DNA from: Spirogloea muscicola
Lineage: Eukaryota > Streptophyta > Zygnematophyceae > Spirogloeales > Spirogloeaceae
DNA length: 41,405 nt
Assembly (NCBI GenBank): GCA_009602725.1
Contig: WELB01000124.1
Span: 380,254-421,658 of the forward strand
Reading direction: 5' to 3'
Shown here: in pieces, positions 4,748 through 41,158 of the stretch
How the letters are laid out: the number at the start of each line of letters is the position of its first letter
Position numbering within the stretch: position 1 is the first letter of the stretch
Notes under the pieces: generated by a model
What the model was told of the DNA's origin: nothing
The model's input: only the letters and a program-made list of their open reading frames with translations
The model's database searches: none
Translations under genes and position numbers: made by a program

Positions 4748-5336
4748 CGACTGTGTTGGGTGTGGTGGAGGGCCTAAGTCCAGAAGAGAACGAAAAACTT
4801 CGTGTATTTGAAATAGACGAAGGCCAAATGGCCAAGTACAAAGGCAAGCACATCTTAAGACCTACATAACCTACAGTAGAAAGAGAGAGGCGCGCGGAGC
4901 ACATGAAGTGAAAGGGAGGCCAATTGAAGCCAATAAATTGTTCAGGCAGAATCTAGAGCATACTAAAACAAGGCTACAGAGAACGGAGCCCTATACTAAG
5001 GTGTCTAGAGTAACAAGGTGACATTAGTACCACTCGGGTCCAAAAGTAAGCAAGCGCTTCCAGATTGACAGCACTGGCTGTGAGAAGCCAGCCCAAAAGA
5101 ATGGACAAGGTCTGAAAGGGTCGGATGGCGCAAGAGAAGGGCTCGCCCATTGAGGCAAGAAGCCAGATACTAAGCACTAAGACGTCAGCAAGGGAGGCTC
5201 TCAGTAACCTCTAGTCAGCAAGTGCAGGTCGGAAAGAAGGAATTGCGCCCCCATAGAATAAGAGGGGCTAGCAAAGCCAGCCCAGGAGAGAAGGCACGCG
5301 GTGCGCTTAAATTTGACAAGGAGGCCAATTCTAGCC
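4748..5336. repeat. non-coding stretch with retroelement tail copies
   Basis: No gene is supported. Three pieces recur elsewhere. 4885-4925 has a GCGCGCGGAGCACATGAAG-type motif shared with 23960-24000. 5080-5160 is a minus-strand hairpin repeat with the flanking 'aagggctcgcccattgagg' tail. 5266-5335 is the 3' UTR of the retroelement copy that ends at 5337. Confidence 0.6.
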
Positions 5337-7584: not shown

Positions 7585-8516
7585 ACATACTAGCAAATGG
7601 GAATAAAGGGAGCTCCTCCCTCCAGCGCAGACGAGCAACCACTGGAGCATCTCCGGAGTCTCCTCCAAGGGGATGCTCGAGGCCAGGCTCGGCTCCTATC
7701 TGTATCGTCTCTGGGAGCGTCTGAGTGGCTCCGCGCTTTGCCTTTGCATGCGGGCTTGCGGATGGAAAATGCTTTGTTTTGCGCCGCCGTCTTGGCTTAC
7801 CATCCCTGTGCTTGGCAGGGGTGACCCAATGTGAATGTGGGCTTATTGGACATGATGCAGTGCTCATGGGTGACCACATGCTCAGGTGTGCCAAAGGCAG
7901 TGAGCGCACGGGCTCCCACAACCTCCTACGTGACGCCATGTATGGCATCGTCAAGGAGGCGGGATATCAAGTGGCGTTGGAGAGCACCGGGGTGATGCCC
8001 GTCCAGCTCCGCAACGGGGTCCCTCGGACGCGGCGTGTCGATCTGGTCGGCGTCCCCCTGGGAGGTGGCAAGCGGCTTCTCATGGACGTCGTCCTAACCG
8101 ACAGCTTCCGGACGAAGGGCCCCGTAGCTTCTGAGACCGGCTTTGCCGTGAAGGTGGCCGAACAGAAGAAGTTGCACAAGTACAAGGACCACCCGGCGGG
8201 TGATACCTTTTACCCCCTGGCCATGGACATCCATGGGTGTTACGGGGGTCGGTGGTCCTCGTTACTTTCGCTGCTGGCATCTCAAGCCGACCAGCGGCGC
8301 CGGGAACAGGGTGCAGCCCTTCCCGGTGGCTCGGTGCCTTTGGGTCTTGTGTCCTGCTACCGTATGCGTTTGTCTATGTCGCTACAGCGTTCCCAAGCGC
8401 TTGCTTTGCATCGCCGCGCTGGTCGTGCCCTTGCAGCAGCCTCTGGCTTGCGCAGCGGGGTTGCTCTTCCTCCCCTCAGCTCATCTGACTTCCTACTGCT
8501 GACACGGGGTTACTAA
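7585..8516 (+). pseudogene. non-LTR retroelement C-terminus: RT tail, zinc knuckle, restriction-like endonuclease
   Basis: This is the fullest copy in the window. Frame 7597-7780 carries the RT end (ARLLSVSSLGASEWLRAL, GLRMENALFC). Frame 7725-8516 carries RRRLGLPSLCLAGVTQCECG, a CxC-x12-H-x4-C knuckle ending DHMLRC, and NLLRDAMYGIVKEAGYQVAL. It continues with the endonuclease core RRVDLV...LLMDVVLTD, KYKDHPAGDTFYPLAMDIHG, and the tail QALALHRRAGRALAAASG...FLLLTRGY-stop. Compared with 1-267, 8 bases (gatgctat) are missing near 7783, which breaks the frame between RT and knuckle. The PD-(D/E)xK reading is from family knowledge of RLE-bearing non-LTR elements: D in RRVDLV, D in MDVV, then AMDIHG. 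The RT core and 5' end are absent. The 263-codon downstream frame alone might be translated, but is more likely a relic. Confidence 0.8.
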
Positions 8517-8656
8517 GAGCGCCCTGGCTGTCTAGCCTGTGGCTCCGTCATGAACACCTGTATGCATCTGGCTGGCTTTCACAGCCGCTCTTTTAATAGC
8601 AGCAGCCGCTTTCTCTCCCTTTTTCTTGCCGGATGGAAACCTCCCTCGCGCACAGA
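8517..8656 (+). repeat. 3' UTR of the preceding retroelement copy
   Basis: The sequence after the TAA includes GGCTGGCTTTCACAGCCGC, a variant of the family hairpin. 8517-8610 is repeated in reverse complement at 24346-24440, so it is a true element tail and not host sequence. Confidence 0.7.
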
Positions 8657-9106: not shown

Positions 9107-9229
9107 CGATTTGCAACATGCACACTGTCGGATGCCTGCCAAAGAAAGTGGGGGGAAGCCAAGAAGGGAGTGGACGGCCGTCCGGACGAGGCGTGGAAAG
9201 GTCGTCGGAAGTGGTCGTAAAGTCAAAGC

Positions 9230-9470
9230 AGTCGGTGGTGCGTGACCCCCCCAAAGATCTCGCCAACGACTTGGAAGCCTGAGGATGCGCCCCTCGACGC
9301 CGCGACGGACGCGGAGGACTACTCCAAGGGAAGTGGCTCTCCCAAAGGGATGTGTAGTGTAGCGGACTGGGCTTTCGCTTACTGATACTTAGTAATTAGC
9401 GGTTGGCGGACGTTGTCACCGTCGATGACCATGAATACCGGGAACCGGCCGGGTGACACCCTTTGGTCTA
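9230..9470 (-). repeat. dispersed repeat 'gacatcgtccgct' family, copy 1
   Basis: The minus-strand sequence here resembles 22505-22800 and, in part, 24805-24925. Shared blocks include a gggtgtgacaccc palindrome, 'ttcccgg...ggtcatc', 'cgtgacatcgtccgct', 'tgactactgatta' and 'ggggggtcacgc'. No protein is recognised in it. It borders the outer sides of the large inverted repeat region. Confidence 0.6.
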
Positions 9471-9665
9471 CGGCCCGCGCGCTGCACCTGCGTGCCGGCA
9501 GAGCCCTCGCTGCTGCCTCTGGCTCTGGCCAGGCTGGCTTTGCCAGCCCCTCTTCTCTATGGGCGCGCACTTCTCTCTTGCCAGGAAGAAGTGGCTCTCC
9601 CAATGGGGGCAAGGGCTGTGAGAAGCCAGCCCGAAAAGAATTGACAAGGTTCGAAGGGGCCAAAC
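9470..9665 (+). pseudogene. retroelement tail fragment plus hairpin repeat
   Basis: 9470-9535 encodes ARALHLRAGRALAAASGSGQ, the conserved end of the element. It is followed by two copies of the GGCTGGC/GCCAGCC hairpin in opposite orientations (9530-9560 and 9610-9660, the latter with AAAAGAATTGACAAGG). Confidence 0.65.
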
Positions 9666-9729
9666 TACGAGCTAAGCAGCGACTGCGGGGCCTGAAGAGG
9701 CTCTGGCAGAACGGGGGAGGATGGACCAC

Positions 9730-10215
9730 TTAGTAGTTACGAGTGAGGAGCCTCAAATCCGACAGACTAGCTGCCGGTAAACTATCCCCCTGACGAAAGC
9801 CGGAGGCCGCAGCGAGAGCACGGCCAGCACGCAGATGCAAGGCGTGGGCCATGGACCGCTGGAGGGAGACGGACAAGCGCATACGATACACCTGAGCCCA
9901 CGAGCCAGCGGCGTTGAAGTCAGCCGGCTCACCGCGCCTGCGGGACACAGCGCGCCGTGCAAGCCTGGCCAACAGGTCGAGCCAGTGGGATCCGAGAGCC
10001 CCATGCACGTCCACAGCCAGGGGGACGAACTCGTCGGCAGCCGGGTGGTCGGCGTGTTTGGCTGCCTTGCTGCGAGCGGCCTTTGCCGCAGTGTGGCCAG
10101 CCCGCGAGGCAGAAAGCCCCGGGTTGGAGCGGTCGACCACATCGGTGGTGACCACATCGGCAATGATGCGCCCGCCACCGCCCGTCGTGGACGCCACCAA
10201 GTCGACGCGGCGCGT
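9730..10215 (-). pseudogene. retroelement endonuclease domain, 5'-truncated but open
   Basis: The minus strand begins RADGLQTRRVDLVASTTGGG, then RIIADVVTTDVVDRSNPG, AAKHADHPAADEFVPLAVDV, HGALGSHWLDLL, YRMRLSVSLQRSM, HLRAGRALAAASGFRQGD and LSDLRLLTRNY-stop. It is open throughout and retains RRVD, ADVVTTD and the AVDVHG motif of the restriction-like endonuclease. The knuckle and RT are lost at its 5' end, where it abuts a plus-strand 3' end of the same family. Of all copies this has the cleanest endonuclease. Confidence 0.75.
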
Positions 10216-10440
10216 TTGGAGTCCGTCGGCCCTCTGGAGGAAGGACTGCCAGGGGACCCACTCCCGGGAGCCTAGCTTCTCTGACCTGAGGGTGCTTAGC
10301 AGGGGTTACTGAGTAACACGTAGCTGCTTTGTTTCTTGTTGTGCTTGTTTTCCTTAGCGCTTCCCCTGGCCCCCTTCTCGTACTCTGTTCCTTCCTTTTT
10401 TGGGCTGGCATTTCCAGCCCCTATCCTCAAAGGGCGAGCC
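10216..10440 (+). mobile_element. retroelement 3' end with hairpin 3' UTR
   Basis: The plus strand encodes REPSFSDLRVLSRGY-stop (about 10267-10312). It is followed by the canonical 3' UTR (TAGCTGCTTTGTTTCTTGTT..., CCCCTGGCCC) and the GGGCTGGCATTTCCAGCCCC hairpin with 'tatcctcaaagggcgagcc'. It is head-to-head with the copy at 9730-10215. Confidence 0.75.
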
Positions 10441-10904
10441 CTTTCTTCTTTGGGGTACCCGGTCCGCCTGGACCTCTTGCCCGTCAACAGTAAGCCTGAT
10501 CGTCTCCTAGCTGTAAGTAAGCGTGGAGACGAAGCCAGCGCACGAGTGTCACGTCAAGGACGCAGTCTCCGAGTGTCACGTCGAAGACGCACTAGCGCCA
10601 CGGGCGGGCGGCACGGCCCGGCGGCGGGCCGGCCCGGCGGCGTGCCATGCTCAGGCGTGCTAGCCAGCATGGGGCTTGGCGGGCCAGCCTCGGGATCTAC
10701 GCCCTGCGGTTTCACCGACCTGAGGCTGCTCAATTCTCGGTTGCTACTTGATTCACTGTGTGCTTTAGCGCTCTCCCTGGCCCCTTCGGAATGTGTTGAT
10801 TCTTTATTCTGGGCGGCCTCGCTAAGCCACCGCCATCTCCTGCAAGCGTCCTTCATCTTTTGCCCCGGGCTCGCCCCTCTAGGGACCTTGTCATGGACCT
10901 CGTT

Positions 10905-11110
10905 CAGTGCTTCTGGGCTGGCCATTCACAGCCCCCGCCCTCTAGAGCTCACTACTTTCATTCTTCTTTCTGGGCTGGCCACTTACAGCCATCGCCCACT
11001 GCTGGAAGCGTTTTTCTTCTTTCTAGGCTAGCTTTTCACAGCCATTGCCCTCTACTGGAAGAACTTTCTTCATTGTCACTGTCAAAGCCCCCGCCCCTTT
11101 GGGAGAGGTC
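10905..11110 (+). repeat. tandem hairpin units upstream of helicase copy 1
   Basis: About four units of tgggctggcc-(a/t)tcacagcc-cgccctctactggaag, the retroelement 3' hairpin, lie 140-340 bp upstream of the helicase start. They correspond to the 53-nt array at 21990-22225 in the other arm, but the unit number differs. Confidence 0.65.
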
Positions 11111-11245
11111 ACTGCTTCTTCCAAAGCCTGCGCCTTGGTGCCGAGCCAGACACACTGTCAGACGAGCTAGGACAGTGTACGTTGCTGGACTGCCGCAGCA
11201 GCTCAGGGCGGCCAACAGCGCCCAGTCCCGCTTAATAGGGAAGCA

Positions 11246-14200
11246 ATGACTGCTCGTACCACCCTCCGTGTTGGCCTCATCGACCTGCGTTCCTCCTCGC
11301 AGGCGGCCGACAAGCCTGATCAGCTACAGGTCGATGGCGATGGGATCACATCGGAAGAAGAGCCTACGCGTGTGCGCAGCATCGCCTTTCCGCCATCGGT
11401 GACGGCTCGACAGCGGGCCGCCCTCCACGGTGATGCCCATCCTCCTTCAGTACTGGCCTTCTGAGTCAGCCTGCTGGAACGGCGCACAACGTGCTCTTCA
11501 GCGATGTTACGTAAAGGCCCACATCGATGGAACCTCCCTGGCCATCACTGTCTTGATTTAGGACCAAGCCCCCATGTTGGACCAAACTTGTGCCTTCACA
11601 AGCTTACTGGCTGGGTTGCCTTGCTGGGCTATGATTGGTCAATAGACAGCAGCTCCCACGTTTTTTCTCATGCCAATATGCCAGCTGGATGCTGCAGAGG
11701 CGGCCAAGGAGCACGGCCTGCAGCATGGGAGCAAGACCAACAGCCAAGGACAACGCATGCTCACTATCACGCGACCGTCTGCAAAGGGCCGCCATGTCGT
11801 TGTCCCTATGGAAGAGGCTGGGCTCACTGATGCTTGCTCGGGCGAGCTCACTGAGTCCCTCCTGGGGCTCAAGTTGGACGGGAAGCTGCAGCTCTGCAGC
11901 GGCACAGCAGCCATGGGCTTGAGAAGGGAGCAGGGTTCTGGGAGCTCTGGCAGAAGGCAGTCCGCCGAATTGCTCCCATTGAGAGCTTCGTCCGTAGCAT
12001 GGACAAGCTACTTGACCTCGAGAAGGTCTTGCTTGACCTGCGCATGTGCCTCAGCCCCTTTGATCCTGGCCGGCTGCCACTCCATTCCACGTTTGACATG
12101 AGAATATCCTGTGTCACTTGCTTACATGACAAGCTTGACTTCACAACCTGAACAAGCTGTTGGGCATTGCAAGATTCTGGCAACTTTTGCCAAGGCATTC
12201 ACAACATGCTGTTATATTTGCGCTGCCATAGACGGGCAGTGTAGTGGACGTTCCAAGTAAGCTATAGGGAATTGGAAAACCTATAATGCAGCTGTACTTT
12301 GTAGGCATCGTCTTCTCACTCGTTTTCTTCGCCTCCCTGCTCACAATCATTCCAACTGTCGTGCGAGGTGGCTTCCAGGACGCGGAGCTGGCGAGATCCA
12401 TCGAGCTTGCGACGCTGATGAAGCCCGAGACAGCCCAGCGGCGAGGGCTCGCGCTGCTTGACCTCAAGTGTGTCAACGAGGTGCCTGGCCTATTTGGCAG
12501 GACGCTGCTCATTCTTAAGCCGAACCAGGGGGAATGCAGTCTTCCCCCTCACAAGGTGCCCACCTGGCGCCTCGCTGCAGAGACCAGGCCTTAAAGTCAT
12601 AGGGTATACAGAGCTGGGCTTCTCTTCTTGTAAAGCTTAGGGTCAGTGTAATTGTCGGCTTAAAGGCTTGAGATATGTATATAGGTGTTCTTAAAGCGTC
12701 TGTTGCGTTTCAGTCTCATAGTACGCTTGGCTGCTCTGTCCTGCTATGCAGTTCTGGCGGCCTCGCGATATTGTGGCGTTGAAGCGGAGCAAAGCAGAGC
12801 CAACCAGCCCGGTGCTGGAGCAGGGCATCGTGTACGACCTCAAGGAGGACAGCATCACTGTCGTTGTGGATGACATTCCTGAGAAGGACCTGGACCACCC
12901 TATCCATCTTGAGAAGCTGGTCAATGATGTGAGACATTCGCATTGCCAAATTTCTTGGTTACTTCGTGGCGTCTAGGTGTCGGTCTACGCAACATGCTAC
13001 TGAGCTTCTCCTGTTCATTGGTCGTCTTTGTGTCCTGCTACTGCTTTGTGACGTGAATGTGCACGATCCTTTGGGCTGTGAGCCAGATTGCTTCTATCTG
13101 CCGAAGCTAGTGTGCCTTAGAAGTGGCAGCCTTTCCTGCAGGCTGCATACCAGTTGCTGAAGGACACGCTGATGCAGTTGACTGAAGGGGTCCTGCAAGG
13201 CCCTGCAGCGGATCTTGTACTGACGCTGATTGGTATCAGGCCTCCAACCTTTGCTGGGGTGCCGCCGGTAGTTGACTTTTTCAACGGGCAGCTTGACCAA
13301 TCACAGCAGGCCGCTGTGTTCAAGGCACTGTCAGCTAACGACGTTTTTCTGCTGCATGGCCCGCCTGGCACTGGAAAGACCACTGCTGTCGTTGAGATCA
13401 TCCTGCAGGTACCAAAGCTTTGCGCAGCGTCCTGCTCAGGACTATGCAGCTCTTGCGCCAATCAGCTTCTTAAGGAGAAGGAGATAGGTGAGAAGGTGGT
13501 CTTTCCAGGTTAAGAATGTCTGGTGTTGGCTTGGGCAGGAGGTGAGCAGGGGCCGCAAAGTGCTCGCGTGCGCAGCGTCAAACATTGCGGTGGACAACCT
13601 CGTCGAGCGGCTCGCCACGCAGAACGTGAAGCTCGTCCGGCTGGGCCACCCAGCCAGGCTGCTGCCCCAGGTGCTCGAATGCTCGCTGGATGCGCAAGTT
13701 CTGCGGAGTGACAACAGTGCCCTCGCCAACGATGCCCGCGAGGAGATGAAGGTGCAAGTCAGCACTTGGCTGATCGCCGTGACCAGATTGCGTCAATGAG
13801 ATTGCCGTGGTTGCTGAGGTAATGGTCATATATGCATGGCTGCTGGGGCTCTAAGACATGGCACCTTGACGACCTTGTCTAATGAATATTGATTTCTGGC
13901 AAGTGCTCTCTTATTGTCCAGCAACTTGAGGACAAGCTACTGGAAAGCAGTGATCGCAGAGAGAGGGCGAGCCTGCGACAGGATATGCGATGGCTGGCCA
14001 AGGAGGAGCGCCGTCGCCAGCAGCCGCTTGCTGCTGCCATCATCAGGAACGGCAAATTCATACTTGCAACTCTCACCGGCGCTTTGTCCCGCCACCTGCG
14101 CGTAAGCCGTGCCCATGTATACAGACTGTATACGTCCCCATTGGCACAATCACTCACCAGGATATAGCCTCCACATATGTGCATGCTAAGCTAGCCATAT

Positions 14201-16110
14201 TTGTCAGTGTCAGTACGACTTGTCAAGCAGTCTTAAGCCAGTCAACCAGAGCCTCATTGTCTCTTTAAAGAATCTACCCCATACCCACTCGGGTGTGTAC
14301 TTGATACAGATAGTTCATTCACAGCGTGCAGTTTATTTTGTTCCAGACATCGACGTTTGATGTGATCGTCATAGACGAGGCGGCTCAAGCGCTTGAGGCG
14401 GCCAGCTGGATTCTTTGCTCCAGGGCAGGCGATGCGTGCTTGCAGGCGACCATCTGCAGCTGCCGCCAACGGTTCTGAGCAAGGAGGCCGAGCGACTGGG
14501 GCTAGGAGTGACGCTCTTGGAGCGGTTGTCCGACTTTTACGGGGACGCCATCACATCGCTCCTGGACGTACAATATCGCATGCATGAAGACATCATGCGG
14601 TTGTCCTCGGAGGCCCTCTACAGCGGCAAGGTGTGTTCTGGAGTCTGGGGCTGACATTGGAGCCAGAAGGTTATCTTGACAGAATGAGAGCCTAATTCTC
14701 TCAAGTGCCTGAGATTGACTGCTTCACATTGAACAATTGTTGAGCCGCAAATGTGTTGTACTGGCAACCTAGTATATTCTGGCACAAACACGTTCAATCA
14801 GGTACAAACAAGAAACCCCTTTGAGCTGCGATTGTATGCAACTGCTAACTCCAGCACTAATTGGACAACTCTTTTGACACATTACCCACACAGGTGAAAG
14901 CTCACAGCCTCGTTGCTGGGCACAAGCTGTTGAACTTGGATGGCGTGTCACGGACGGCAACCTCTGAAGCAACACTTGTTCTTGTTGACACAGCAGGGTA
15001 TTGCAAATGAAATCAAGATTGCACGGCTCGTACTCCTTCTCTGTTATGGGAGTGCGCAAGTAGACTACATGGTCTTCCTGACGACTACGGCAGCTTTCTT
15101 GATCATGTCAGAGTGAAAGATGTGATGCATGAGCATACAATTTGTGACAAACCGTAATGCTGGACAGATGCGAAATGGAGGAGGCAAGGGAGGAGGAAGG
15201 GGACAGCATGCTTAATGACGGCGAGGCTCACGTGGCTATTGCTTACGCTGAGAGGCTCCTCAATGCAGGCGTTGCAGCAGCCGACATAGGCATCATTACG
15301 CCCTACAGTGCACAGGTATGCTCAATGCATATCTTCAATTTGATGACCTCTTCAGTCTCAAGATCTGGCTTTTTTGAATGTCAAAGGACAGCTATGGCGG
15401 CAGAGCTCTCCATATGGGCGGTGGCCTTGTGTGAGCCTGACCAAGCGAAGGCTGGACAGTGCTGGTCAAGATCTTATGCCAAACTGTGGGAAAATTGAAG
15501 TCACTAGAACATGCGCTGTTCGCTGTTTATGCAGTATCTTGCTGGCTGTGCGTCTACACGCTGAGGTATAGGGCATGCACTTACTGCAAGTCAGCAGTGT
15601 AGCTGCTTACTTCCAGCGTCAGATGCTCTTCATTGACAGGTTAAATGCCTTAAGCAGCTGAGGGACGATAAGCAGGTGCTGGCGCCTGTGGAGGTGTCGA
15701 CAGTTGACGGCTTTCAGGGCCGCGAAAAAGAGGCAATCATTATCAGCATGGTCCGATCGAATGGCAGAGGAGAGGTGAAGATGTGGGAGACTATCATTGC
15801 TACCTCAGCTAATGTCAGCACCTAGAGCAAGGATTCTGCCAAGACACTTGCTGCTACAAGTACCCGATGAAAAGCGAAATGTGTTGTCCAAACGAAATAT
15901 CTGAGTAGTGCGCTTATCTTTGTGCTGCAGGTGGGTTTCCTGGCTGAAAGGCGCCGGATGAATGTGGCAGTGACACGAGCGAGGCGCCAGTGCTGCGTCA
16001 TTTGTGATCGCGACACAGTGACAAATGACGTATTCTTGAAGGACATGATCGGCTACTTTGAGGCTCACGGAGAGCTCCTCACTGCCAAGGAAGTTTACCC
16101 CCAGCATTGA
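11246..16110 (+). pseudogene. SMUBP-2/IGHMBP2-like SF1 helicase, copy 1 (two frameshifts)
   Basis: Family members are 5'-3' SF1B DNA/RNA helicases. Pieces in order: MTARTTLRVGLIDLR (11246); KEHGLQHGS...[15 protein letters not shown] (11670-); [36 protein letters not shown] (12377-); [17 protein letters not shown] (12746-12929); motif I GPPGTGKT (exon to 13407); [15 protein letters not shown] (13541-13750); a basic helical exon (13920-14102); motif II VIDEAAQ with [20 protein letters not shown] and [10 protein letters not shown] (14348-14631); [15 protein letters not shown] (14894-); TPYSAQ (15315); [19 protein letters not shown] (15641-15774); VAVTRARRQ (15932-16110). Against copy 2, one base is missing near 11970 (just before ESFV) and one near 14411 (between [12 protein letters not shown] and the LAGD exon part). 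Unless these are assembly errors, the product is truncated before the helicase core. It lacks the R3H and AN1 zinc-finger tail of animal IGHMBP2. Confidence 0.8.
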
Positions 16111-16447
16111 AGTTATTGGCATGACAACGCCCGCAAAGCACTCATGAAGGCGACTTGATGGCAACATGCAAAAGCCGAGAGCCAGGTGACAGCCAGTTGC
16201 ATGGAGGTGCTCGGCTTTGCCGCATCCAGTCAGCACATGCATGTCACGTTGCTCCCTTGTGGTTCTGCGCTTCAGTTGACACACTTTCCTTGACATTGTT
16301 GCCGTCGATGTGCTGAGGGGCAGGCCAGTGGAAAACACCAGCAGCAGCTTGGCAGCAGCAACTTGGACAGATGAGCAGGGAGCTCTTGCCAGACCGATCA
16401 CTGCAGGCACGTCCGGCTGCCTTTGCATGAGGTCTCAGGTGGCAAGT

Positions 16448-16889
16448 TAGCTCCTCGTGGGTTTAGGGGTTATGGAAGAACACTTTCTTTCAATATGGGC
16501 AAGGGCTGTGAACAGCCAGCCCGTCTTGCCACAGCTCTTGCAACTTACAGGAGGTGCCAAATTCTAGAAAGTAAGCTCATACAAATGAGTCGAGGGCTGT
16601 GAAAAGCCAACCCCAAAAGAAAGGACAAGTCCAAAGGGGCCGGAAAAGGGCCACCGACACTCTAGAGTAGGGTAAGGAAAAGAGGACCTATGCAACCATA
16701 AATGTCGACTGCGGCTGGTAGGAGGTGATTGCGGCAGGGTCAGTCGAAGGAGTGCTGCATTTCTGCTTAATGAAGGAGCTCCAGGGCATTGAAGACCCAG
16801 TGAAATATAGCGGCCCAAAAGATTCGCACACCTTGCTCTGCCTCCTTCAATGTGACACAACTATCACTAAGACTCTTCCAGCAGGGGCT
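16448..16889. repeat. spacer between the inverted-repeat arms
   Basis: About 440 bp separate the two convergent helicase arms. It holds two hairpin repeats (16500-16525, GGGCTGTGAACAGCCAGCCC; 16590-16650, GGGCTGTGAAAAGCC with AAAAGAAAGGACAAGTCC). No supported gene is present. The spacer is long enough that the palindrome would be tolerated better than a perfect one. Confidence 0.6.
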
Positions 16890-16990
16890 TACTTACCACC
16901 TGAGACCTCATGCAAAGGCAACCGGACGTGCCTGCCATGACTGGTCTGGCAAGAGCTAAGACTGGCCCTGCTCAATTATACAAGTTGCTG

Positions 16991-19900
16991 CTACCAAGGT
17001 GCTGCTGGTATTCTCCACTTGCCTGCCCTCAGCACATTGCTGGGGTTTAATTGTATGGCACTGAGGAGCTCTCCGTGACTCTCAAAGTAGTCAATCATGT
17101 CCTTCAAGAACTCGTCATGTGTCACTGTGTCGCGGTTACAAATGACGCAGCACTGGCGCCTAGCTCGTGTCACTGCCACGTTCATCCGGCGCCTTTCAGC
17201 CAGAAAACCCACCTGCAGCACAAACGTCAATGCACAATTCAGACATTGCATTTGGACAACACATTTCGCTTTTCATCAGATACTTGTAGCAGCAAATGTC
17301 CTGGCATAATCCTTGCTCTTTGTGCTGACATGAGCTGACGTAGCAATAATAGTCTTTCACATCTTCACCTCTCCTCTGCCATTCGATCGGACCATGCTGA
17401 TGATGATTGCCTCTCTTTCGCGGCCCTGAAAGCCGTCAACCGTCGACACCTCCACAGGAGCCAGCACCTGCTTATCGTCCCTCAGCTGCTTAAGGCATTT
17501 AACCTGTCAATCCAAGAGCATCTGAAGCTGGAAGTCAGCAGCTAGACTGCTGTCTTGCAGTAAGTGCATGCCCTATACCTCAGCATTGGAATTTACAGCC
17601 AGCAAGATACTGCATAAACAGCAAGAATCGCATGTTTGGAGTTGCATGTTCCAGTGACTTCACTTCTGCCACAATTTGCCATCAGATCTTGACCAGCACT
17701 GTCCAGCCTTCTCTTGGTCAGGCTTGCACAAGACCACCGCCCATATGGAGAGTACTGCCTCCACAGCTGTCCTTTGGCTCTCAAGAATAGCCAGATCTTG
17801 ACATGGAAGGGGTCATCAGATTTGAAGATTTGCACTGAGCAGACCTGTGCACTGTAGGGCGTTATGATGCCAATGTCTGCTGCCGCAACCCCTGCATCAA
17901 GTAGCCTCTCAGCGTAAGCGATAACGATGTGAGCCTCGCCGTCATTCTGCCAGCTGTCCCCTTCCTCCTCCCTTGCCTCTTCCATGTCGCATCTGTCCAG
18001 CATCAGGGTTTGTCACAAAAGAAATGCTCATGCGCCACATGTTATCTCTCTGACATGATTAAGAAAGCTGCCGTAGTCTTAAGCAGTTCCATGTAGTCTA
18101 CTTGCGCACTCACGTTACAGATGGAGTACGAGCCGTGCATTCTTGAGTTCATTTGCAGTACCCAGTTGTGTCAATGAGAACAAGTGCTGCTTCAGAGGTT
18201 GCCGTCCGTGACACGCCATCCAAGCCCAATAGCTTGTGCCCAGCAACGAGGCTGTGAGCATGCACCTATGTGGGTAATTGTACCAGAGGAATTAAGTGCT
18301 GGAGTACTTGCGAACAATTGCAGCTCAAAGGGGTCCTTGTTCGTACCTAATTGACTATATATGTGCCAAAGTACTACTAGGCTGACAGTACAACACATTT
18401 GCGGCTCAACACATCTTCCATGTGAACAAGTCTTGTTCAGGCAATTGGGCTCTCATTCTGTCAAGATAACCTTCTAGCCAATCTCAGCCCCAGACTGCAG
18501 GACACACCTTGCCGCCGTAGAGGGCCTCCGAGGACCACCGCATAATATCTTCATGCATGCGATATTGTACGTTCAGAAGCGATGAGATGTCGCCCCCGTG
18601 AAAGTCGGACAACCTCTCAAAAAGTGTCACAGCTAGGCCATGTCGCTCAGCCTCCTTGCTCAAAACTCTTGGCGGCAGCTGCAGATGGTCGCCTGCAAGC
18701 ACGCATCGCCTGCCCTTGAGCAAAGCAATCCAGCTGGCCGCCTCAAGCGCTTGAGCCGCCTCGTCTATGACGATCACGTCAAACCTTACTTCCTGGAACA
18801 ACATAAACTGCACGCTGTTAATGATCTATCTGTATCAGGTACATACTCGAGTAGTCATGGGGTAGTTCCTCAACAAAGATCAATGAGCCTCTGGTTGACT
18901 GCCTCAAACTGCTTAATAATTCGTACTGACTTTGACAAATGTGGCTCGCTTAGCGTGCACATATCTGGAGGCTATGTCCTGGTGAGTGATTGTGCCGATG
19001 GCATGTGGGGACGTGTACGTGGGCCCCACTTACGTCCAGGTAGCGATTTGAAGCGCCAGAAAGAGTTGTGAGTATGACTCTACTGTTCTGAATGATGGCA
19101 GCAACAAAAGGCTGCTGGCGCTTGCGCTCCTCCATGGCCAGGCATCGCAAGTCCCGTCGCAGCTTCGCCCTGTCTCTGCGGTCTTTGGATTTCAGAAGCT
19201 CATCTTCAAGTTGCTGGACAGAGAAAGAGCAATCGCTTGCAATCAATACTACTCATCAGACAAAGTCATCAGGTTGCCATGTCCTAGAAGCTCCTGCAGC
19301 CATGCATAGATGACCATTACCTTAGCAAACACGGCAATCTGAGAAGTGCAAGTTGGTCAAGGCAATCAGCCAAGTGCTGACTTGCACCTTCATCTGCTTG
19401 CGGGCATCGTTGGCGAGGGCACTGTTGTCACTCCGCAGAACTTGCGCATCCAGCGAGCATTCGAGCACCTGGGGCAGCAGCCTGGCTGGGTGGCCCAGCC
19501 GGACGAGCTTCACGTTCTGCGTGGCGAGCCGCTCGACGAGGTTGTCCACCGCAATGTTTGACGCTGCGCACGCGAGCACTTTGCGGCCCCTGCTCACCTC
19601 CTGCCCAAGCCAATAATTACATTAGATGAATCTTTGACTGGAAATACCACCTCACATATGTCTCCCTTTTCTCCTTCAGAAGATGGTTGATGGAAGAGCT
19701 GCACTTTCATGAGCAGGACTCTGTGAGAAAATTCGGTACCTGCAGGATGATCTCAACTACTGTTGTGGTCTTTCCAGTGCCAGGCGGGCCATGCAGCAGA
19801 AAGACGTCATAAGCTGACAGTGCCTTGGCCACAGCGGCCTGCTGTGAGTGGTCAAGCTGCCGATTGAAGAAGTTTACTACCGTAGGCACCCCAGCGAAGC

Positions 19901-21837
19901 TTGGAACCCTGGTACCAAACAGTGCCGACACAAGATACGCTGCAGGGCCTTGCAGGACCCCTTGAGTCAATCGCATCAGTGTCTTCTTCATCATCTTGTA
20001 CGTAGCCTGCAGGAAAGGCTGCCACTCCTGAGGCACTCTAGCTTTGGCAGATATAAGCAAGTTGGCTCACAAGGTACAGTTCAAAGGAACACGCACATTT
20101 ATGTCACCAAGCAGTAACAGGAAAAACGAAGACCATTGCACAGCAGAATCTCAATAGCACGTTGCGTACAACGACACCTAGCGCCACGGAGCAACCAAGA
20201 AATGTTCTACTGCATATGTCTCACTTTGTTGACCACCTTCTCAAGGCGGATAGGGTGGTCCAGGTCCTTCTCAGGAATGTCATCCACAACGACAGTGATG
20301 CTGTCCTCCTTCAGGTCGTACACGATGCCCTTCTCCAGCACCGGGCTGGTTGGCTCTGCTTCGCTCCGCTTCAACGCCACGATATCGCGAGGCCGCCAGA
20401 ACTGCATAGCAGGACAGAGCCGCCAAGCTACTGTGAGACTGAAACTCAATAGCTGCATCAAGCACAACTATATACTAATCTCAAGCCTCCAAGCCGGCAG
20501 TTATACTAACCCTGAGGTTTACAAGCAGAGAAGCGCCGCTATGTACCCCTGTGACCCTTAAGCCTGGTCTCTGCAGCGAGGCGCCAGGTGAGCACCTTGT
20601 GAGGGGGAAGGATGTCATCCTGGTTGGATTTAAGAACCAGCAACGTCTTGCCAAATAGGCCACGCTCCTCTTTGACACACTTGAGATCAAGCGGCGCGAG
20701 CCCTCGCCGCTGGGCTGTCTCGGGCTTCATCAGTGTCGCAAACTCGGTCGATCTCGCCAGCTCCGCATCCTGGAGGCCACCTCGCACGACAGTGGGAGAT
20801 GATGATGAGCAGGAAGGCGATAAAAACGAGTAAGAAGAGGATGCCTAGAAAGCAGAGCTGCAATCTATGATTTCCAATGCCTTAAAGCTTGGTTGAAATG
20901 TCCAACGTCCAGTACACTGTAGAATAAGAGATAATGACGCCCTATGGCAGCGCAGATACAACAGCAAATTGTGAATACATTGAAACAAGTGACACATAAC
21001 ATTTCTCATGTCAAACTTGTAATAAAATAGCAGCCGCCCAGAATCAGAGGTGGGGTTGAGGCACTTGCGCAGGTCAAGCAAGACCTTCTCGAGGTCAAGT
21101 AGCTTGTTCATGCTATGGACGAAGCTCTCAACAGTGAGCACGTCGGCGGACGGCCCTCTGCCAGAGCTCCCAGAACCCTGCTCCCTCCTCAAGCCCATGG
21201 CTGCTGTGCCGCTGCAGAGCTGCAGCTTCCCGTCCAACTTGAGCCCCAGGAGGGACTCAGTGAGCTCGCCCAAGCAAGCATCAGTGAGCCCAGCCTCTTC
21301 CATAGGGACAACGACATGGCGCCCCTTACGCCACGGTCGCGTGATAGTGAGCATGCGTTGTCCCTGGCTGTCGGTCTGGCTCCCATGCTGCAGACCGTGC
21401 TCCTTGGCCGCCTCTGCAGCATCCAGCTGGCATATTGGCATGAGAAAAAACTGCTGACTTGTCACCAATCATAGCCCAGCAAGGCAACCCAGCCAGTAAG
21501 CTAGTGAATACGAAACTTTGGTACAACATGCGGGCTTGGTCCTCAATCAAGAGAGTGGTGGAAGTTCAGTGAGCTTCCAATAACATGTGCCTTTGCGTGA
21601 CATCGCTGGAGGAGCTCGTTGTGCGCCGTTCCAGCAGGCTGACTTAGGAGGATGGGCATCACCGGCCAGCTGCCGAGCCGTCAGCGACGGCGGAAAGGCG
21701 ACGCTGCACACAGTCGTGGGCACTTCTTCGGATGTGATCCCATCGTCATCAGCTTGTAGCTGGTCAGGCTCGTCGGCCGCCTGCAAGGAGGTACGCAGGT
21801 CGATGAGGCCGGCACTGAGGGTAGTACGAGCAGCCAT
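16991..21837 (-). CDS. SMUBP-2/IGHMBP2-like SF1 helicase, copy 2 (helicase frames open)
   Basis: Same gene as copy 1, in opposite orientation. From ATG 21837: [15 protein letters not shown]; then [16 protein letters not shown] through [20 protein letters not shown] in one frame (21468-20990); [20 protein letters not shown] (20780-); [19 protein letters not shown] (exon end ~20227); motif I GPPGTGKT (19707-20016); [15 protein letters not shown]; basic helix exon (19220-19040); motif [22 protein letters not shown] then [11 protein letters not shown] (III) and [42 protein letters not shown] and [25 protein letters not shown]; motif [11 protein letters not shown]; stop near 16991. All helicase motifs are intact and phase-0 GT-AG introns fit. 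The end differs from copy 1: the original stop is lost and about 15 extra codons (ending RIPAAPW) are read. It probably acts as a nuclear or organellar nucleic-acid helicase; the location is not visible. It lies convergent to its twin. Confidence 0.8.
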
Positions 21838-21989
21838 TGCATCCCTATGAAGCGGGACTGGGAGCTGGTGGCCGCCCTGAGCTGCTGCGTCAGTTCAGCA
21901 GTGTACACTGTCCTAGCTCGTCTAAGTGACTGTCGGGCTCGGCCTCAAGGCCCAGGCCTTGGAAGAAGATGTGGCCTCTTCCTAAGGGG
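21838..21989 (-). promoter_or_regulatory. 5' flank of helicase copy 2
   Basis: This 150-bp stretch directly upstream of the start is conserved in copy 1 (11115-11245). A third partial copy lies at 24225-24345 (agcgggactggg...gtacactg..cctagctcgtct). No TATA box is obvious. Promoter identity is inferred from position and conservation. Confidence 0.4.
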
Positions 21990-22225
21990 CGGAGGCTGTG
22001 ACAGTGACAGTGAAGAAGAGTCTTCCAGTAGGGGGCGATGGCTGTGATTTGCCAGCCCAGAAAGAAGAAGGACGCTTCCAGTAGAGGGCGATGGCTATGA
22101 ATTGCCAGCCCAGAAAAAAGAAGGACGCTTCCAGTAGAGGGCGATGGCCAGCCCAGAAAGGACTATGAAAGACGTGAGCTCTGCCAAAGGGGGCGGGGGC
22201 TGTGAATGGCCAGCCCAGAAAACAT
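21990..22225 (-). repeat. 53-nt tandem hairpin array upstream of helicase copy 2
   Basis: cttccagtag starts recur at 22022, 22075 and 22128, a strict 53-nt period. Each unit contains gggcgatggctgtgaa-ttgccagcccagaaa, the retroelement 3' hairpin. A shortened unit and a final gggggctgtgaatggccagcccag follow to 22225. Confidence 0.8.
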
Positions 22226-22513
22226 GAACAAGCTCCAAGACAAGGTCCTTGAAGGGGCGAGCCGGGAGCGGTGATCCCGACACTGCGCCGCCATGCCCGA
22301 TGCAGGCCAGCATGCAAGAGCATGGCATGCGGCCGGGCAGGCCCGCCGCCGGGCCGCGGCGCTGGTGCGGCGTTTACGTGACACCCGAAGACGCGTCTTT
22401 GATGTGACACTCTGTGCGCTAGCTTCGTCTCTACGGTTACTCACAGCAAGGAGACGATTAGAATTCCTGTTGTGACGGGCAAGAGGTCCAGGGCGGACAG
22501 GGTACCCCGATGG
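22226..22513 (-). repeat. outer flank of right arm
   Basis: GC-rich flank with gcatggcatgc and ccgggcaggcccgccgccgggcc self-complementary blocks, and gtgtcac direct repeats (fgtgacac-type pairs around 22377 and 22403). It matches 10525-10930 in the left arm and 24564-24800 to the right. No gene is recognised. Confidence 0.6.
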
Positions 22514-22810
22514 GTGTGACACCCGTCCAGTTCCCGGCCTTTACGGTCATCGACCGTGACATCGTCCGCTAATCGAGAAAAAGGGCTCGCCCATTGAGGA
22601 TAGCGGCTGGAAAAGCCAGCTTATCCCTGACTACTGATTATGCGTTAGCCCGGTCCGCTAAACTACTCCCCCATTGGCTGAGAGTGGTCCTCCGCATCCG
22701 TCGCGGCGTCGAGGGTCGCATCCCCAGGCTCCAGGTCGTCGAAGGGCGAGATCTTCCGGGGGGGGTCACGCGCCAACGACTGCTTTGACTCCTCTGACGC
22801 CTTTGCCCCC
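22505..22810 (+). repeat. dispersed repeat 'gacatcgtccgct' family, copy 2
   Basis: Carries gggtgtgacacccgtcc, ttcccgg, ggtcatcgaccgtgacatcg, tccgctaatcg, tgactactgatta and the ggggggggtcacgc block. It is homologous to 9230-9470 (reverse) and 24805-24925 (forward). A hairpin repeat piece (22585-22625) is inserted within it. Confidence 0.65.
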
Positions 22811-24201: not shown

Positions 24202-24345
24202 AAGAGGTCCAGGGCGGACAGGGTTCTGCAGCGGGACTGGGCGCTACTGGCCGCGCTTAGGCTGCTACATGTGTCCGGCCATGTACACTGCCCTAGCTCG
24301 TCTGAAGGGTCTGTCTGGCTGGGCCCCAGGCCTTAAGAGTCAAGC
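24202..24345. repeat. third partial copy of the helicase 5' flank
   Basis: 24202-24225 repeats caagaggtccagggcggacag from the outer arm end (22480-22502). 24225-24345 repeats the immediate upstream region of the helicase genes (agcgggactggg..., tgtacactg.cctagctcgtct, aggcctta). The intervening tandem array and all helicase exons are absent. Confidence 0.6.
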
Positions 24346-24563
24346 GGCTGCTGATATTAAAAGAGCGGCTGTGAAAGCCAGCCAGATGCATACAGGTGTT
24401 CATGACGGAGCCACAGGCTAGACAGCCAGGGCGCTCTTAGTAACCCCGTGTCAGCAGTAGGAAGTCAGATGAGCTGAGGGGAGGAAGAGCAACCCCGCTG
24501 CGCAAGCCAGAGGCTGCTGCAAGGGCACGACCAGCGCGGCGATGCAAAGCAAGCGCTTGGGAA
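24346..24563 (-). mobile_element. retroelement 3' end identical in type to 8390-8610
   Basis: The minus strand encodes SQALALHRRAGRALAAASGL, RSGVALPPLSSSDFLLLTRGY (in two overlapping quotes), stop at 24437-24439. The 3' UTR carries the ccagatgcatacaggtgttcatgacgg block. It is nearly identical to the plus-strand copy at 7585-8610 and so recent. It splits the third arm-flank copy into 24202-24345 and 24564-24800. Confidence 0.8.
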
Positions 24564-24984
24564 CGCCTTGGAGGGGCGAAGCCGGGGCGGGAGCCCCCGA
24601 GGCTGCCCTGCCAAGCCCGATGTTCGACGGCGCACCCGAGCATGGCATGCCGCCGGGCAGGCTCCAGCGCCGGGCCGTGCCGCCCGTGGCGCACGTGCCT
24701 CTTCGACGTGGCACTGGAAATGTCGTCTAAGCTAGCGCATCGTCACTACGAATACTTGTAGCTAGGAGACCATTAGGCTAATCATCGACGCTTAAGTGAC
24801 GTATGCGCCACGGCACCCCAAAGGGTGTGACACCCGTCCGGTTCCCGGTATCAATGGTCATCCAGCGTGACATCGTCCGCTGATCGCTGACTACTGATTA
24901 TCGGTTGACCCAGTCCGCTGGGTCAACCCCACACTAGCTCGCCAAGTGACGTGTCCGTCACACCTAGACACAGAGATCCAGATC
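24564..24984. repeat. third arm-flank copy plus dispersed repeat copy 3
   Basis: 24564-24800 (ggaggggcgaagccgg..., agcatggcatgccgccgggcagg, gtgtcgtctaagctagcgc) matches 22255-22400. 24805-24925 matches the dispersed repeat (gggtgtgacacccgtccggt, gtgacatcgtccgctgatcg, ctgactactgatta). It ends in a gggttgaccc-type inverted repeat around 24905-24925. Confidence 0.6.
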
Positions 24985-25590
24985 CTCGACCCCGAGCTTG
25001 GTGGCCACCACGCCGGGCGGTGGCCCGCGGGTCCCGCCGACGTGGTCACTTCAGATGTGGTTGACTGCTCTTACCCGGGGTCCTTGCTTCGAAGGCTGGG
25101 CATCCACTGCAGCGAATGCCGCTCGTGGCAAAGAGGCCAAGTACGCGGACGACCCGGAAAGGGACGAGTTCGTCCCACTGGCCGTCGATGTGCACGGGGC
25201 CTCGGGGTCTTAGTGGCTATACCTGTCGGCTCGGCCTGCGCAACGCACTGTGTAACGCAGGCGGGGGCGAGCAGGCCGACTTCAAACGCCGTTAGCTGCC
25301 TTCCGCAAGTGTTTCGCATGAGCCTGTCCATATCCCTCCAGCAATTCATGGGCCACGCCTTGCACCTGTGCTGGCCGTGCTCTAGCTGCAGCCTCTGACT
25401 TTCGTCAAGGGGATTGCTTTGCGGCGGCTGCTAGTCTTTCTGACTTGCAGCTACTACTTGGTATACTACTATCTATAAATACTACTTGCTTACGTCTTCC
25501 ACGTCTTTCAGCACTTTTTTCGGCCGTTTCGGACCTTGTCAATCTTGTGGCTGGCTGTTCACAGCCGGCGCCCCATTGGGAGAGCCACTT
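24985..25590 (+). pseudogene. retroelement endonuclease remnant with 3' tail
   Basis: The plus strand has, across shifting frames, ADVVTSDVVDCSYPG, KEAKYADDPERDEFVPLAVD, VHGASGS, then MSLSISLQQFMGHALHLC. A tail follows containing tgtggctggctgttcacagccggcgccccattgggagag (25550-25585), the family hairpin. It is multiply frameshifted. Confidence 0.65.
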
Positions 25591-26234
25591 TCTCACACTT
25601 CAGCGTTAAGCTTTAGAGATTGAAGCATTTGACCCTAGTAGACATGCGCCGTAAGGAGCGCAACTTTGAGGAAGGTGGCCAGCGCAAGTGACGGCACGCG
25701 AGCGAGGGCCGCCTGAGTGCGGATTCCAATGCCTTGAGGTGGTGGACGGGCACCCACGGGCCCAGGTCGTGCATCCGCAGCGGCTGCGGCGGCGGCGGCG
25801 GCGGCAGCGGCCGCTCGGCAGCCGCCTGCGCCACGCTTCCCGGCTGCCCCAGCCTTCTCGTCGGCTGCGGTCTTCCTCGCCTCCTCGGAGATCATGCCGC
25901 AGCCTCGGCTGCAAGGGCGGCGCTGCGCTCAGAGAGGCGGGCTCTCGGCCCAAAAGCGGCCCGGCCCCGGCCGCCGCGAAAGGCTCGCTTCGCGACGGCC
26001 CGCGGCGGCGGCGGCGGCCCTGCCAAGTCAGCAGGCCGCCACGTGGTGCCCGCCGGATCGAACATGCATCAGCAGCGGGGCGACCCACGTGGACCACGGT
26101 CAGGAAATCGGCGGGAGCCGAAGACCTAGCCGCGCCCTAAAATCCGCAACCATGGCCCAGGGTGCGACGACCTAGCCACACCCTAGTTTACGACAACCCT
26201 GGCCCGCGGCCCGGCCAGGCGCGGCGGCGGGGCC
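25591..26234. other. very GC-rich upstream region, no supported gene
   Basis: CGG/GCC-rich sequence gives long frames on both strands, but none has a recognisable domain. 26124-26160 and 26170-26206 are an imperfect tandem duplication (acctagcc.c.ccctagtt/aaatccgcaacc.tggccc) just upstream of the DUF599 start. It probably includes that gene's promoter and 5' UTR. Confidence 0.5.
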
Positions 26235-27450
26235 ATGGCGTGGAGCGAGGCCCTGCTGGACGCGGTGCTGGTGCCGCCGGCCGTGGCGGCGCTGCTGGCG
26301 TACCACGTCTGGCTGGCCGCCGCGGTGCGCCGCCGCCCGCTCACCACGGTCGTCGGCGTCAACCACATGGTCCGCCGCGCCTGGGTGCACCACATCATGC
26401 GGGTCAGTGCTCGGCCCGCCCACGATAAACCACCACCAGTGCTAACGCCCCAATTGTTCCTCCACCAAGGAGTCGTCTGCCTCTGGGAAGAGTCGAATCC
26501 CCGCCGTCTGCGGCATGGGACCTCGCCGGCGGCTGAGCCAGCTCCAGGTCCAGGTCCAGGTCCCTCATGCGCCGCCAGCCGCCGTTGTTGCAGGACAACG
26601 AGAAGCGCAACATCCTGGCGGTGCAGACGCTGCGCAACTGGGTGATGGCCTCGTCGCTGCTGGCGTCCACTGCCATCGGCCTGTCCACCGCCATGGCCGC
26701 GCTGCTGCGCTCCGCGCTGGACCCCGTCGTGCGGCAGGCCCTGCAGAGCTTCATCGTGGGCGCCGACTCCGACTCCGTCGTCGCCGTCAAGTTCTTCTGC
26801 CTCCTCCTCTGCTTCCTCTGGGCCTTCCTCTGCTACATCCAGGTGCGCTACGCCCTGAATTATGCTGCCCACACCACCGTTGATGTGCTTCAGAATAGAG
26901 CTCCTACAAGATAGCCTGTCTCAGGTCTTAAGACTTGGGGCTTGTACAAGTTGTGCGCTTGAGTATCTAGCTTGGCAAACAATGGCGGCCCCTTGGCCTG
27001 TTGGTGCCTCGGCCGGGCGAGCGCGCCCCAGCGCGTGCCGTTCCGTGTGGGGTGACGCCACAGAGCATGCGCTACGTCAACCACGTCAGCTTCCTGGTGA
27101 ACATCCCCATGGGGCCCGAGCTGCCGGGCTTGACGCCGGACTACGTCGCCAAGGTCCTGGAGAAGGGCTCTGACTTCTACACCGTCGGCACGCGCGGCTA
27201 CTACGTCGCCTTCCCGCTCATCTGCTGGCTCTTCGGCCCCATACCCATGCTGGTCGTTTCCCTGCTCATGATTGCTCTACTGTACAAGCTCGATACGCCT
27301 GGCGGCTACCACGCACCAACCGGCAGCAGCGGAGGCAGTGCAGCATTTTTTGGGCCTGCCTCTGAAGACCGCACCAATGGCGACAACGGTGACGCCCTCA
27401 GCAGCATTCATGTAGTTGAGAATGATCACTACCTCAAGCACGGGCTTTAA
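26235..27450 (+). CDS. DUF599 multi-pass membrane protein
   Basis: Three exons, 26235-26402, 26594-26842 and 27064-27450, join in phase 0 with GT-AG introns to give about 267 residues, near the family's usual length. Exon 1: MAWSEALLDAVLVPPAVAAL then YHVWLAAAVRRRPLTTVVG, a first membrane segment. Exon 2: NILAVQTLRNWVMASSLLAS, then a hydrophobic stretch and VVAVKFFCLLLCFLWAFLCY. Exon 3: SMRYVNHVSFLVNIP, GTRGYYVAFPLICWLFGPIP and MLVVSLLMIALLYKLD, followed by a hydrophilic tail. The pattern NxMxRxxWV, QTLRNxxMAxSLLAS and RxxNHxxFLxN is typical of plant and bacterial DUF599 proteins, whose biochemical role is unknown. About four membrane helices are visible. The ATG sits in a GCCATGG context. It lies upstream of, and convergent with, the CSL zinc-finger gene. 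Confidence 0.85.
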
Positions 27451-28568
27451 TCAGCTGCATGATCGTCCTTAAACTCCTCGCTCCCGGAGGATGCAAATGC
27501 ATCACATTCTTTGGCAGAACTCAACAGTTTTAGTATATAAATTCTTTGGCCAGCAAGCAGCGTGGCCTGCAAGGGGCAATTAGGGGCACTTTTCAAGAAA
27601 TCTGCTAGGACCAACACCACAGCACCATGAGATGTTCATGTGGTGTTACATTGGACTGACGCAGAGGTGTACTCGGCCGGCCTGCCCTCGTGGTCAGAGC
27701 ATGGAGCCCGAGTCCCAAGGCCTGGGCCCGGATCCTCATAATCCAAATATGTGCAAGCCAGAATTGGGCAGCACAGGATACCCTTAGTCATAGTACATTG
27801 GCAGCATCAGCACATTGGCAGCATGCTGTGTGCTCAGACAGGCTGCTTGATAAATCATCATGGCGTTGCTCGCTGCGATGTACTGGTAATGGCAGCACGG
27901 TATAGATCCTCCATTGTCCCACCTGCTGCTTGCTGTTTGTAACGCAGTCAGTAACCAAGCTTTCTGGGGCACTCGCTTATGCTTAGCCGCTGCAGCAGCA
28001 CCACTAACACGTGTGGCCACCGATGCCTAGCATGGAGCCCCCTTACAAGGGCTCTTAAGTTGACCAAAGAGCCCATTTTGCAGGACGAATGGCGTCCTGG
28101 CAGTACCAGCTCCACGTGTCTTACTTCTCGGCAAGCCAGCCGCCAACAAAACTCGCACTTGTGCCTTGAACGAGTGGGTCTGCGTGAGTCTGCGAAACAC
28201 CAAGGACGAGAAAGAGAGACCGACCAAATCAGCACAAGGATTGACAAATCTGGTGGGGCCTGCTTCATCCTTCCAATAGCCTGTTTTTGCAATCTCGGGG
28301 GGCCATAAGAAATTGACTTACGCACCTGCATGGCCGTCGATTGCCCTCGGCTTGGAGCCAAGCGGTTGTACAAAAGCTCATCTTCGTCATGGCCGTGAGC
28401 TCGGTAGACGCCCCTGTTGTCAGTGGCTGCCTGCAGCCATTTGGCTGGCTGCGTTGGAGGACGCGTGCTCGCAAGGCAGTCCTCCAGCACGCCAGCCAAA
28501 TGGCTGCGGCTGACAGTGGCAAGGTGCACATTGGATCGTGGGCTCTGCTGGGCGCACGCAGCAGACAG
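27451..28568. other. gene-free stretch between convergent genes
   Basis: 3' UTR sequence and AT-richer spacer. A 193-codon minus-strand frame (27948-28529) has no recognisable domain and spans a strong hairpin, so I do not call it. No other element is seen apart from the hairpin listed separately. Confidence 0.5.
28433..28507. other. long near-perfect hairpin
   Basis: 28433-28462 (GCAGCCATTTGGCTGGC then TGCGTTGGAGGAC) pairs with 28479-28507. The outer 17 bp are perfect, a few bases mismatch, then 8 bp are perfect. The loop is 16 nt. It lies just beyond the stop of the minus-strand CSL zinc-finger gene, where a 3'-end structure or a small-RNA precursor would be possible. Function is not shown. 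Confidence 0.7.
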
Positions 28569-29049
28569 TCAGCGCGAGCTGACGGCTACACAGATGTGGA
28601 GGGAGCAGGATCCGCAGGGGACGAGGATCTCCGCCTGTGCCGCCTCGTCGGGGCCAGCACCGCCATTCACCAACTGCGCCTGCCGTTGTCCCTGCCGCCG
28701 CTGCTGGTCGTCCTCCTCGTGCCCAGCTACTGCGGCGGCGACGTCCAAGCCTGCAGGAAGGTCATGAAGCTTGCTTTGGCTGCGGAAAGACGTCTGGACT
28801 TGATGGCTTCGTGACACTTAGATCGTCACACGAGCTCCCCAGGCGGAAGGCAGAGAGCTGGCCACCATGGCGGCTCTGCGAGAGCTCACCGGTGAGACGG
28901 TAGGCGTCGCCGCAGCGGCAGGGGTGCTCGTATTCGGCCGCGCCGCCGCCGCCGTCGCCGCCGGCGCCGCCGGTAACGGCCATGTCCTCCAAGCGCACCA
29001 CCTCGGAGACCACGCCGCCGTCCTGCCGCGGCCGCCGCCGCCGCCGCCG
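28569..29049 (-). CDS. CSL-type (DPH) zinc-finger protein, probable DPH4/DNAJC24 C-terminus
   Basis: Two minus-strand exons are visible. Exon 28890-29049 encodes GGVVSEVVRLEDMAV then EYEHPCRCGDAYRLT. A GTGAGC donor and a CTGCAG acceptor join it in phase 1 to exon 28569-28750 (GLDVAAAVAGHEEDD..., EAAQAEILVPCGSCSLHICV, stop). The paired CRCG and CGSC cysteines with the CSL tripeptide are the metal site of the DPH-type MB domain. DPH3 and DPH4 use this domain in diphthamide synthesis on eEF2. CRCG (not CPCG) and the preceding EVVRLEDM favour DPH4/DNAJC24. The J domain would lie 5', in or beyond the assembly gap, and is not visible, so DPH3 cannot be excluded. The gene is incomplete here. Confidence 0.7.
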
Positions 29050-40458
<11,409 letters not shown>

Positions 40459-41049: not shown

Positions 41050-41158
41050 ATCACAGTGATTGATGATCGAAGGCCAGGCTGTGGCTTGAGGGCCCGACGA
41101 GGCCAGGAAAAAAGCATGCCTCGCTGCCTAGTCACTGGCTCAGTCCTGTGCGGCGCTG

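Follow-up and report, generated by a model that had tools for sequence, protein, structure and literature searches.

The helicase palindrome

The window, the whole stretch of 41,405 nucleotides that we have analyzed, corresponds to positions 380254-421658 of contig WELB01000124.1 (C124) in the Spirogloea muscicola assembly (153 Mb in 471 contigs). It contains a large inverted repeat, whose limits are defined by self-BLAST and arm alignment. The left arm (L) covers 10452-16455 on the forward strand, the right arm (R) is its inverted copy at 16883-22508 on the reverse strand, and a 427-bp spacer (16456-16882) lies between them. When aligned over 5817 bases, the arms share 84.0% identity. Self-BLAST of the window gives inverted matches at 10452-10697/22508-22273 (81%), 10961-12123/22122-20983 (85.5%), 12245-16109/20904-17035 (85.1%) and 16308-16455/17037-16883 (83%). 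The top inverted block scores 3906 bits; the maximum in five first-order Markov shuffles of the window is 33.7 bits. The palindrome is real, and self-BLAST confirms the 12-kb imperfect palindrome of the preliminary description, whose oppositely oriented arms share about 84% identity and flank 427 bp. The tail-to-tail duplication of a whole intron-containing gene plus upstream DNA, also proposed there, is genuine: Some 1-1.2 kb 5' of the first traced exon stretch are included in it. Inverted pairs of at least 500 bp appear in 14 rows across 187,405 bases, and 13 of them read as one helicase copy against another. The single pair of other origin is found at C117:348705-349668/351239-352147.

Each arm carries a SMUBP-2-type gene. 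Eleven exons are traceable in both arms, and the introns between them are bounded by GT and AG; exon 10 ends one base past the coordinate used for this check, and the first stretch begins inside its exon. The L copy (11646-16110, forward strand) was modelled as 11 exon stretches: 11978-12025, 12379-12555, 12752-12928, 13142-13408, 13539-13751, 13922-14101, 14347-14630, 14894-14997, 15168-15315, 15640-15774 and 15931-16110. The frame of its first exon extends upstream as a stop-to-stop open reading frame from 11646, and it is broken by 1-bp deletions after 11975 and after 14412. The R copy (16991-21468, reverse strand) is open through all 11 modelled exons (21132-17042). Its first exon is also open upstream, as a stop-to-stop reading frame to 21468. 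About 96 residues of this upstream stretch are without a Pfam match; a similar stretch is also present in the singleton copies described below. The ancestral stop of R was lost with a 198-bp deletion, and the frame continues to a stop at 16993-16991.

The spliced R protein matches the Pfam families AAA_11 (211.5 bits), AAA_12 (202 bits) and SMUBP-2_HCS1_1B (52.6 bits), each with a cut-off of 27. Its residues 1-631 align with chain residues 4-639 of SMUBP-2 (PDB 4b3g, 4b3f) with an E-value of about 1e-156. Compared with UPF1, SEN1 and DNA2, its closest solved relative is SMUBP-2 (524.7 bits), the next molecule is UPF1 (178.9 bits). On these matches, the arm genes belong to the SMUBP-2/IGHMBP2 family of SF1 helicases. 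The modelled R protein stops about where the 646-residue SMUBP-2 chain ends, and R3H or zinc-finger families are absent from the best 25 of its 38 Pfam rows. Human SMUBP-2 carries R3H and zinc-finger domains.

The locus had been described as two convergent SMUBP-2-like helicases. The family assignment is correct according to Pfam and to the structure match, but the number is overstated, since L has two 1-bp deletions. As judged from their reading frames, the genes of the window are not two working helicases: Only R is open through the modelled exons, so within the pair R alone could still make a helicase.

Homeologous loci and age of the duplication

A recent genome triplication in Spirogloea muscicola is stated in PMC7994812 and also in PMC10487979. 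Our gene searches show sets of three: Sorted by eye, the 89 AAA_12 matches in the genome include 8 triplets and 2 pairs besides the helicase palindrome locus, MCM matches form at least three triplets beside sets of two, and Argonaute matches form one triplet plus a fourth locus. Among the best 60 of 632 matches of a light-harvesting protein of this genome, a single LHCI chain of 620 residues is followed by chains which are mostly land-plant Lhcb, and Chlamydomonas chains rank below these. A search of the assembly for the RuBisCO large subunit gave no match.

The palindrome also occurs more than once. Contigs C117 and C270 each carry a matching tail-to-tail pair in homeologous position, although the right arm in C270 is truncated at 145469. 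The right flanks are colinear as far as fetched: Window positions 24606-30666 correspond to C117:321953-316001 (reversed, about 6 kb), and 24986-41144 correspond to C270:145687-161989 (about 16 kb). Each of the three contigs also has one singleton helicase copy near the pair (C124:297.3-302.2k, C117:353.4-358.2k and C270:129.0-124.2k), which is 70-71% identical to the window arms. The C124 singleton is about 90 kb from the window pair.

A further copy in C124, at 290.4-294.7k (extending to about 295.7k), is a recent inverted partial duplicate of L with 96.5% identity. This duplicate lies about 100 kb from the window palindrome. We have tried to read C124:284-310k, which includes the singleton, the truncated inverted L copy and an LRR-like gene, as a single inversion whose breaks were staggered, but such an inversion does not account for where the LRR-like gene lies.

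We have built a tree of the outer arms (10560-15730) from nine rows, without the partial duplicate; in this alignment the right arm of C270 fills 45% of the columns. The L arms of all three homeologs make up one clade (support 100/98), and their R arms a second one (95/95). Pairing both arms of one palindrome is rejected for all three palindromes (AU p <1e-30). Since L and R form separate clades across the three homeologs, the inverted duplication is, as read from this tree, older than the genome triplication; these clades rule out a duplication younger than the triplication.

The same clades bear on whether the palindrome is an assembly artefact, in which two haplotypes or homeologs were joined tail to tail. 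Homeolog collapse or mis-joining is a known hazard in a triplicated genome. Nevertheless, the tail-to-tail structure is present on three contigs, its arms group by side and not by contig, and the right flanks are colinear with C270 for about 16 kb and with C117 for about 6 kb. We have therefore rejected the haplotype mis-join suggested as a possibility in the preliminary description: Two more contigs hold the pair homeologously, with L and R arms in separate clades, and we consider an artefact extremely improbable.

The short branches between L and R add up to about 0.02 changes per site, compared with end branches of 0.06-0.09, so little time separated the duplication from the triplication. 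The dS between the window arms (0.194) is not above that of matching homeologous arms (0.19-0.28), presumably owing to conversion. The topology of the R clade, which joins the R arms of the window and C117, disagrees with those of the L arms and the singletons, which join C117 and C270.

Long inverted repeats are expected to be unstable, and this palindrome had been described as structurally unstable, which would make it short-lived. This does not agree with its history: The pair predates the triplication, and persists at least partly in all three homeologs.

Recombination between arms and outer borders

Scoring of 40 of the 314 candidates gave a full-length spacer at three places. Relative to the arms, the orientation of the window spacer is opposite to that of both homeologs on C117 and C270. 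Of 97 diagnostic spacer sites, 84 are R-type on the L side of the window, and 76 are L-type on its R side. A spacer tree splits the two orientations with 100/100 support, and grouping without a flip is rejected (lnL difference 264, AU p 2e-4); as the orientations correspond to opposite strands in this tree, the long branch between them is meaningful for grouping only.

These data show that the window spacer was flipped, by an arm-to-arm crossover. The 198-bp stretch at 16110-16307 is found in L of the window, in L of C117 and in both arms of C270; it is missing from the R arms of the window and C117. Since the window L arm retains this stretch just outside the spacer, the crossover is best placed at 16308-16455 (partner 17037-16883), a segment defined by self-BLAST, diagnostic sites, the spacer tree and the 198-bp stretch. 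This placement rests on few sites: There are 4 at 16300-16460, and the AU p for 16180-16455 alone is 0.15.

The window arms are also identical over 214 bp, at 13526-13739 and 19613-19400; identical runs in the other 14 arm pairs do not exceed 90 bp. This tract is a clear product of gene conversion. Among 60 diagnostic sites between 13670 and 16110, 35 are L-type and 21 R-type in window L; in window R, 46 are R-type and 9 L-type. Most of these sites fit the arm in which they lie, and further conversion would explain the mixture. It is plainest at 14100-14500, where window L is R-type at 5 of the 6 diagnostic sites.

Mirror-image matches continue past both arm ends, at 9403-9459/22572-22516 and 9221-9324/22790-22682. 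From these matches we have defined probable outer extensions of L (9221-9470) and R (22516-22790), so the original arms probably reached 9221 and 22790. The L extension is split from its arm by a later insertion at 9585-10246, on the reverse strand, which is flanked by a 6-bp direct repeat (TGCCAG) and contains, as seen by eye, part of a retroelement-like open reading frame. This insert arrived later, because the 96% duplicate at C124:290.4-295.7k has an empty site in its place.

Dispersed repeats at the outer borders had been proposed as the cause of the inverted duplication. The border repeats do exist: The left one (9221-9470) has 25 matches in the genome, and other border matches are in direct orientation (10248-10455/22872-23075 and 9472-9533/22816-22877). 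Their mediation is doubtful, as they look like the outermost portions of the two arms: They mirror one another colinearly past both arm ends, as expected if they were inside the arms, a mirror-oriented repeat pair is also found in C117, and the 9585-10246 insert is later. These observations weaken the proposal, and we regard a duplication caused by the border repeats as unlikely.

Decay of the copies and comparison with known systems

Five of the six arm genes are disrupted, the sole open one being window R, and the partial L duplicate is disrupted too. The L gene in C117 has three nonsense codons, and its R gene has a stop and frameshifts. In C270, L has frameshifts, stops and a 439-bp insert, and R is truncated. 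The 198-bp deletion is common to the R genes of the window and C117. Neither of the 1-bp deletions of window L is present in the partial duplicate (C124:290.4-294.7k), so they must be younger than that copy, or else assembly errors, as such single-base deletions could be. After the split between window L and this copy, the private changes are 8 nonsynonymous and 1 synonymous in window L, 4 and 7 in the copy, which are few counts.

The singletons show a different situation. Their omega values are low (0.08-0.11 in three pairs), which indicates strong purifying selection, and the nearby diverged singleton appears to be the constrained gene. Two of the three are open through the modelled exons; in the one on C270, a single base is deleted and a donor is altered. 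Arm genes have omega values of 0.23-0.46 between homeologs (12 pairs) and 0.32-0.48 within one palindrome (3 pairs). When only private changes are considered, omega is 0.16-0.46 for all six arm genes, each with p<0.05 against neutrality, and the lowest value is found in the L gene of C117, despite its three nonsense codons. From these values, all six arm genes seem to be under some constraint, so that their loss of function is recent or incomplete.

The history which we propose is very probably correct in outline: an old inverted tandem duplication before the triplication, followed by independent decay, and by recombination between the arms in the window. A SMUBP-2/IGHMBP2-type gene, together with about 1 kb or more of the DNA upstream of it, was copied in inverted orientation beside itself shortly before the whole-genome triplication, giving a tail-to-tail pair around a spacer of about 0.43 kb. 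This local inverted duplication may have arisen by break repair. Each of the three palindromes then decayed on its own after the triplication, by frameshifts, nonsense mutations, truncation and insertion. The arms of the window recombined at least twice: The spacer was flipped by a crossover close to their inner ends, and the 214-bp tract was copied by a conversion.

On the other hand, the palindrome might have been kept through the triplication since its inverted-repeat form acts in some way, for example through hairpin small RNAs which damp the helicase family, or as a spacer-flipping recombination hot spot which seeds rearrangements like the partial inverted copy (96%) found some 100 kb from the palindrome. 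We consider such a role improbable. Another reading would be a functional inverted repeat similar to PAI4-PAI1, whose read-through hairpin RNA might give small RNAs silencing SMUBP-2-type genes. The tail-to-tail geometry and the short spacer would suit a hairpin, and the genome has Argonaute genes; the L arm and the spacer together contain 6463 distinct 21-mers, of which 769 are found again in the R arm. However, just 30-51 of these 769 shared 21-mers are present in a singleton, so the constrained gene would be poorly targeted. The arms are 16% different, and the number of shared 21-mers falls to 415 in C117 and to 195 in C270, with its truncated arm. Silencing of this type is very unlikely in our opinion.

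Under the proposed history of duplication and decay, the gene content of the locus is ordinary: A helicase was duplicated, and its additional copies are in decay. What is less common is the setting: Through the triplication the palindrome exists as three replicates that are independent of one another, and each of them has a more distant singleton that serves as outgroup, so one algal locus allows per-lineage counts of crossover, conversion, truncation and pseudogenisation. The structure is real, old and of a known kind, and its setting is unusually informative, as the three copies amount to a natural experiment on how a palindrome decays. A limited literature search that combined tail-to-tail inverted gene pairs, pseudogenes and whole-genome duplication gave no matching paper, which is no claim of absence.

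Comparable structures have been described in other organisms. In Arabidopsis, the whole-gene inverted repeats PAI4-PAI1 (tail-to-tail) and VIM4-VIM2 (head-to-head) are tied to near-perfect stem-loop RNAs and siRNAs, as described in PMC13213937. The likeness to PAI4-PAI1, as given there, is that of whole plant genes inverted tail to tail and close together. Unlike the PAI type, with near-perfect identity of arms and trans targets, the window arms are 84% identical; the window pair is also older than a genome triplication.

In Caenorhabditis, inverted pairs of paralogous genes, convergent or divergent, are retained across orthologous loci, and their arms are described as unusually alike within species, sometimes 100% (PMC1803023). 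To the extent described there, these pairs resemble ours: They are inverted paralogs, some of them convergent, kept at orthologous loci. In contrast, Spirogloea arms are closer to the matching homeologous arms than to each other.

In human Y palindrome P6, conversion between arms and rare inversion by crossover in the arms have been described, with arms more than 99.9% similar (PMC3723533). Both processes of that account, arm-to-arm conversion and spacer inversion, are found here. Nevertheless, the window presents one clear conversion tract and one flip in heavily diverged arms, whose divergence of about 16% makes it unlike an actively homogenised palindrome. An active palindrome homogenised in the manner of the Y chromosome is ruled out by the L and R clades, as pairing within a palindrome is rejected in all three cases.

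Repeats and an insertion beside the palindrome

The two arms of the helicase palindrome (10452-16455 on the forward strand and 16883-22508 on the reverse strand) are far older than a 225-bp inverted pair located outside them (8387-8611 and 24342-24566, 99.6% identity). This pair, retroelement-like when judged by eye, belongs to a family with further members in C270, a contig with a homeologous palindrome, and at C124:286.7k, on the same contig as the window.

An insertion of about 660 bp is found at 9585-10246, with TGCCAG on both flanks. The corresponding empty site is seen near C124:294690, in the 96% duplicate, a partial inverted copy of the left arm. By eye, the insertion contains a partial ORF, which is retroelement-like.

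A shared assembly gap

At 29050-29636, 343 N are flanked by two A runs of 122 bases each. The homeologous positions in C270 (149907-150352) and C117 (316973-317366) are also gapped, which suggests that this stretch is hard to assemble in each of the three homeologs.

Rearrangement and LRR-like stretches

In C124:284001-304000, the singleton helicase (a more diverged SMUBP-2-type copy), a truncated inverted left-arm copy and an LRR-like gene lie side by side; a single simple inversion does not account for their order. Open stretches at 2837-4952 also appear LRR-like by eye. On C117 and C270, their homeologous counterparts are closer to C124:285-287k (79-81%) than to the window (67-68%).
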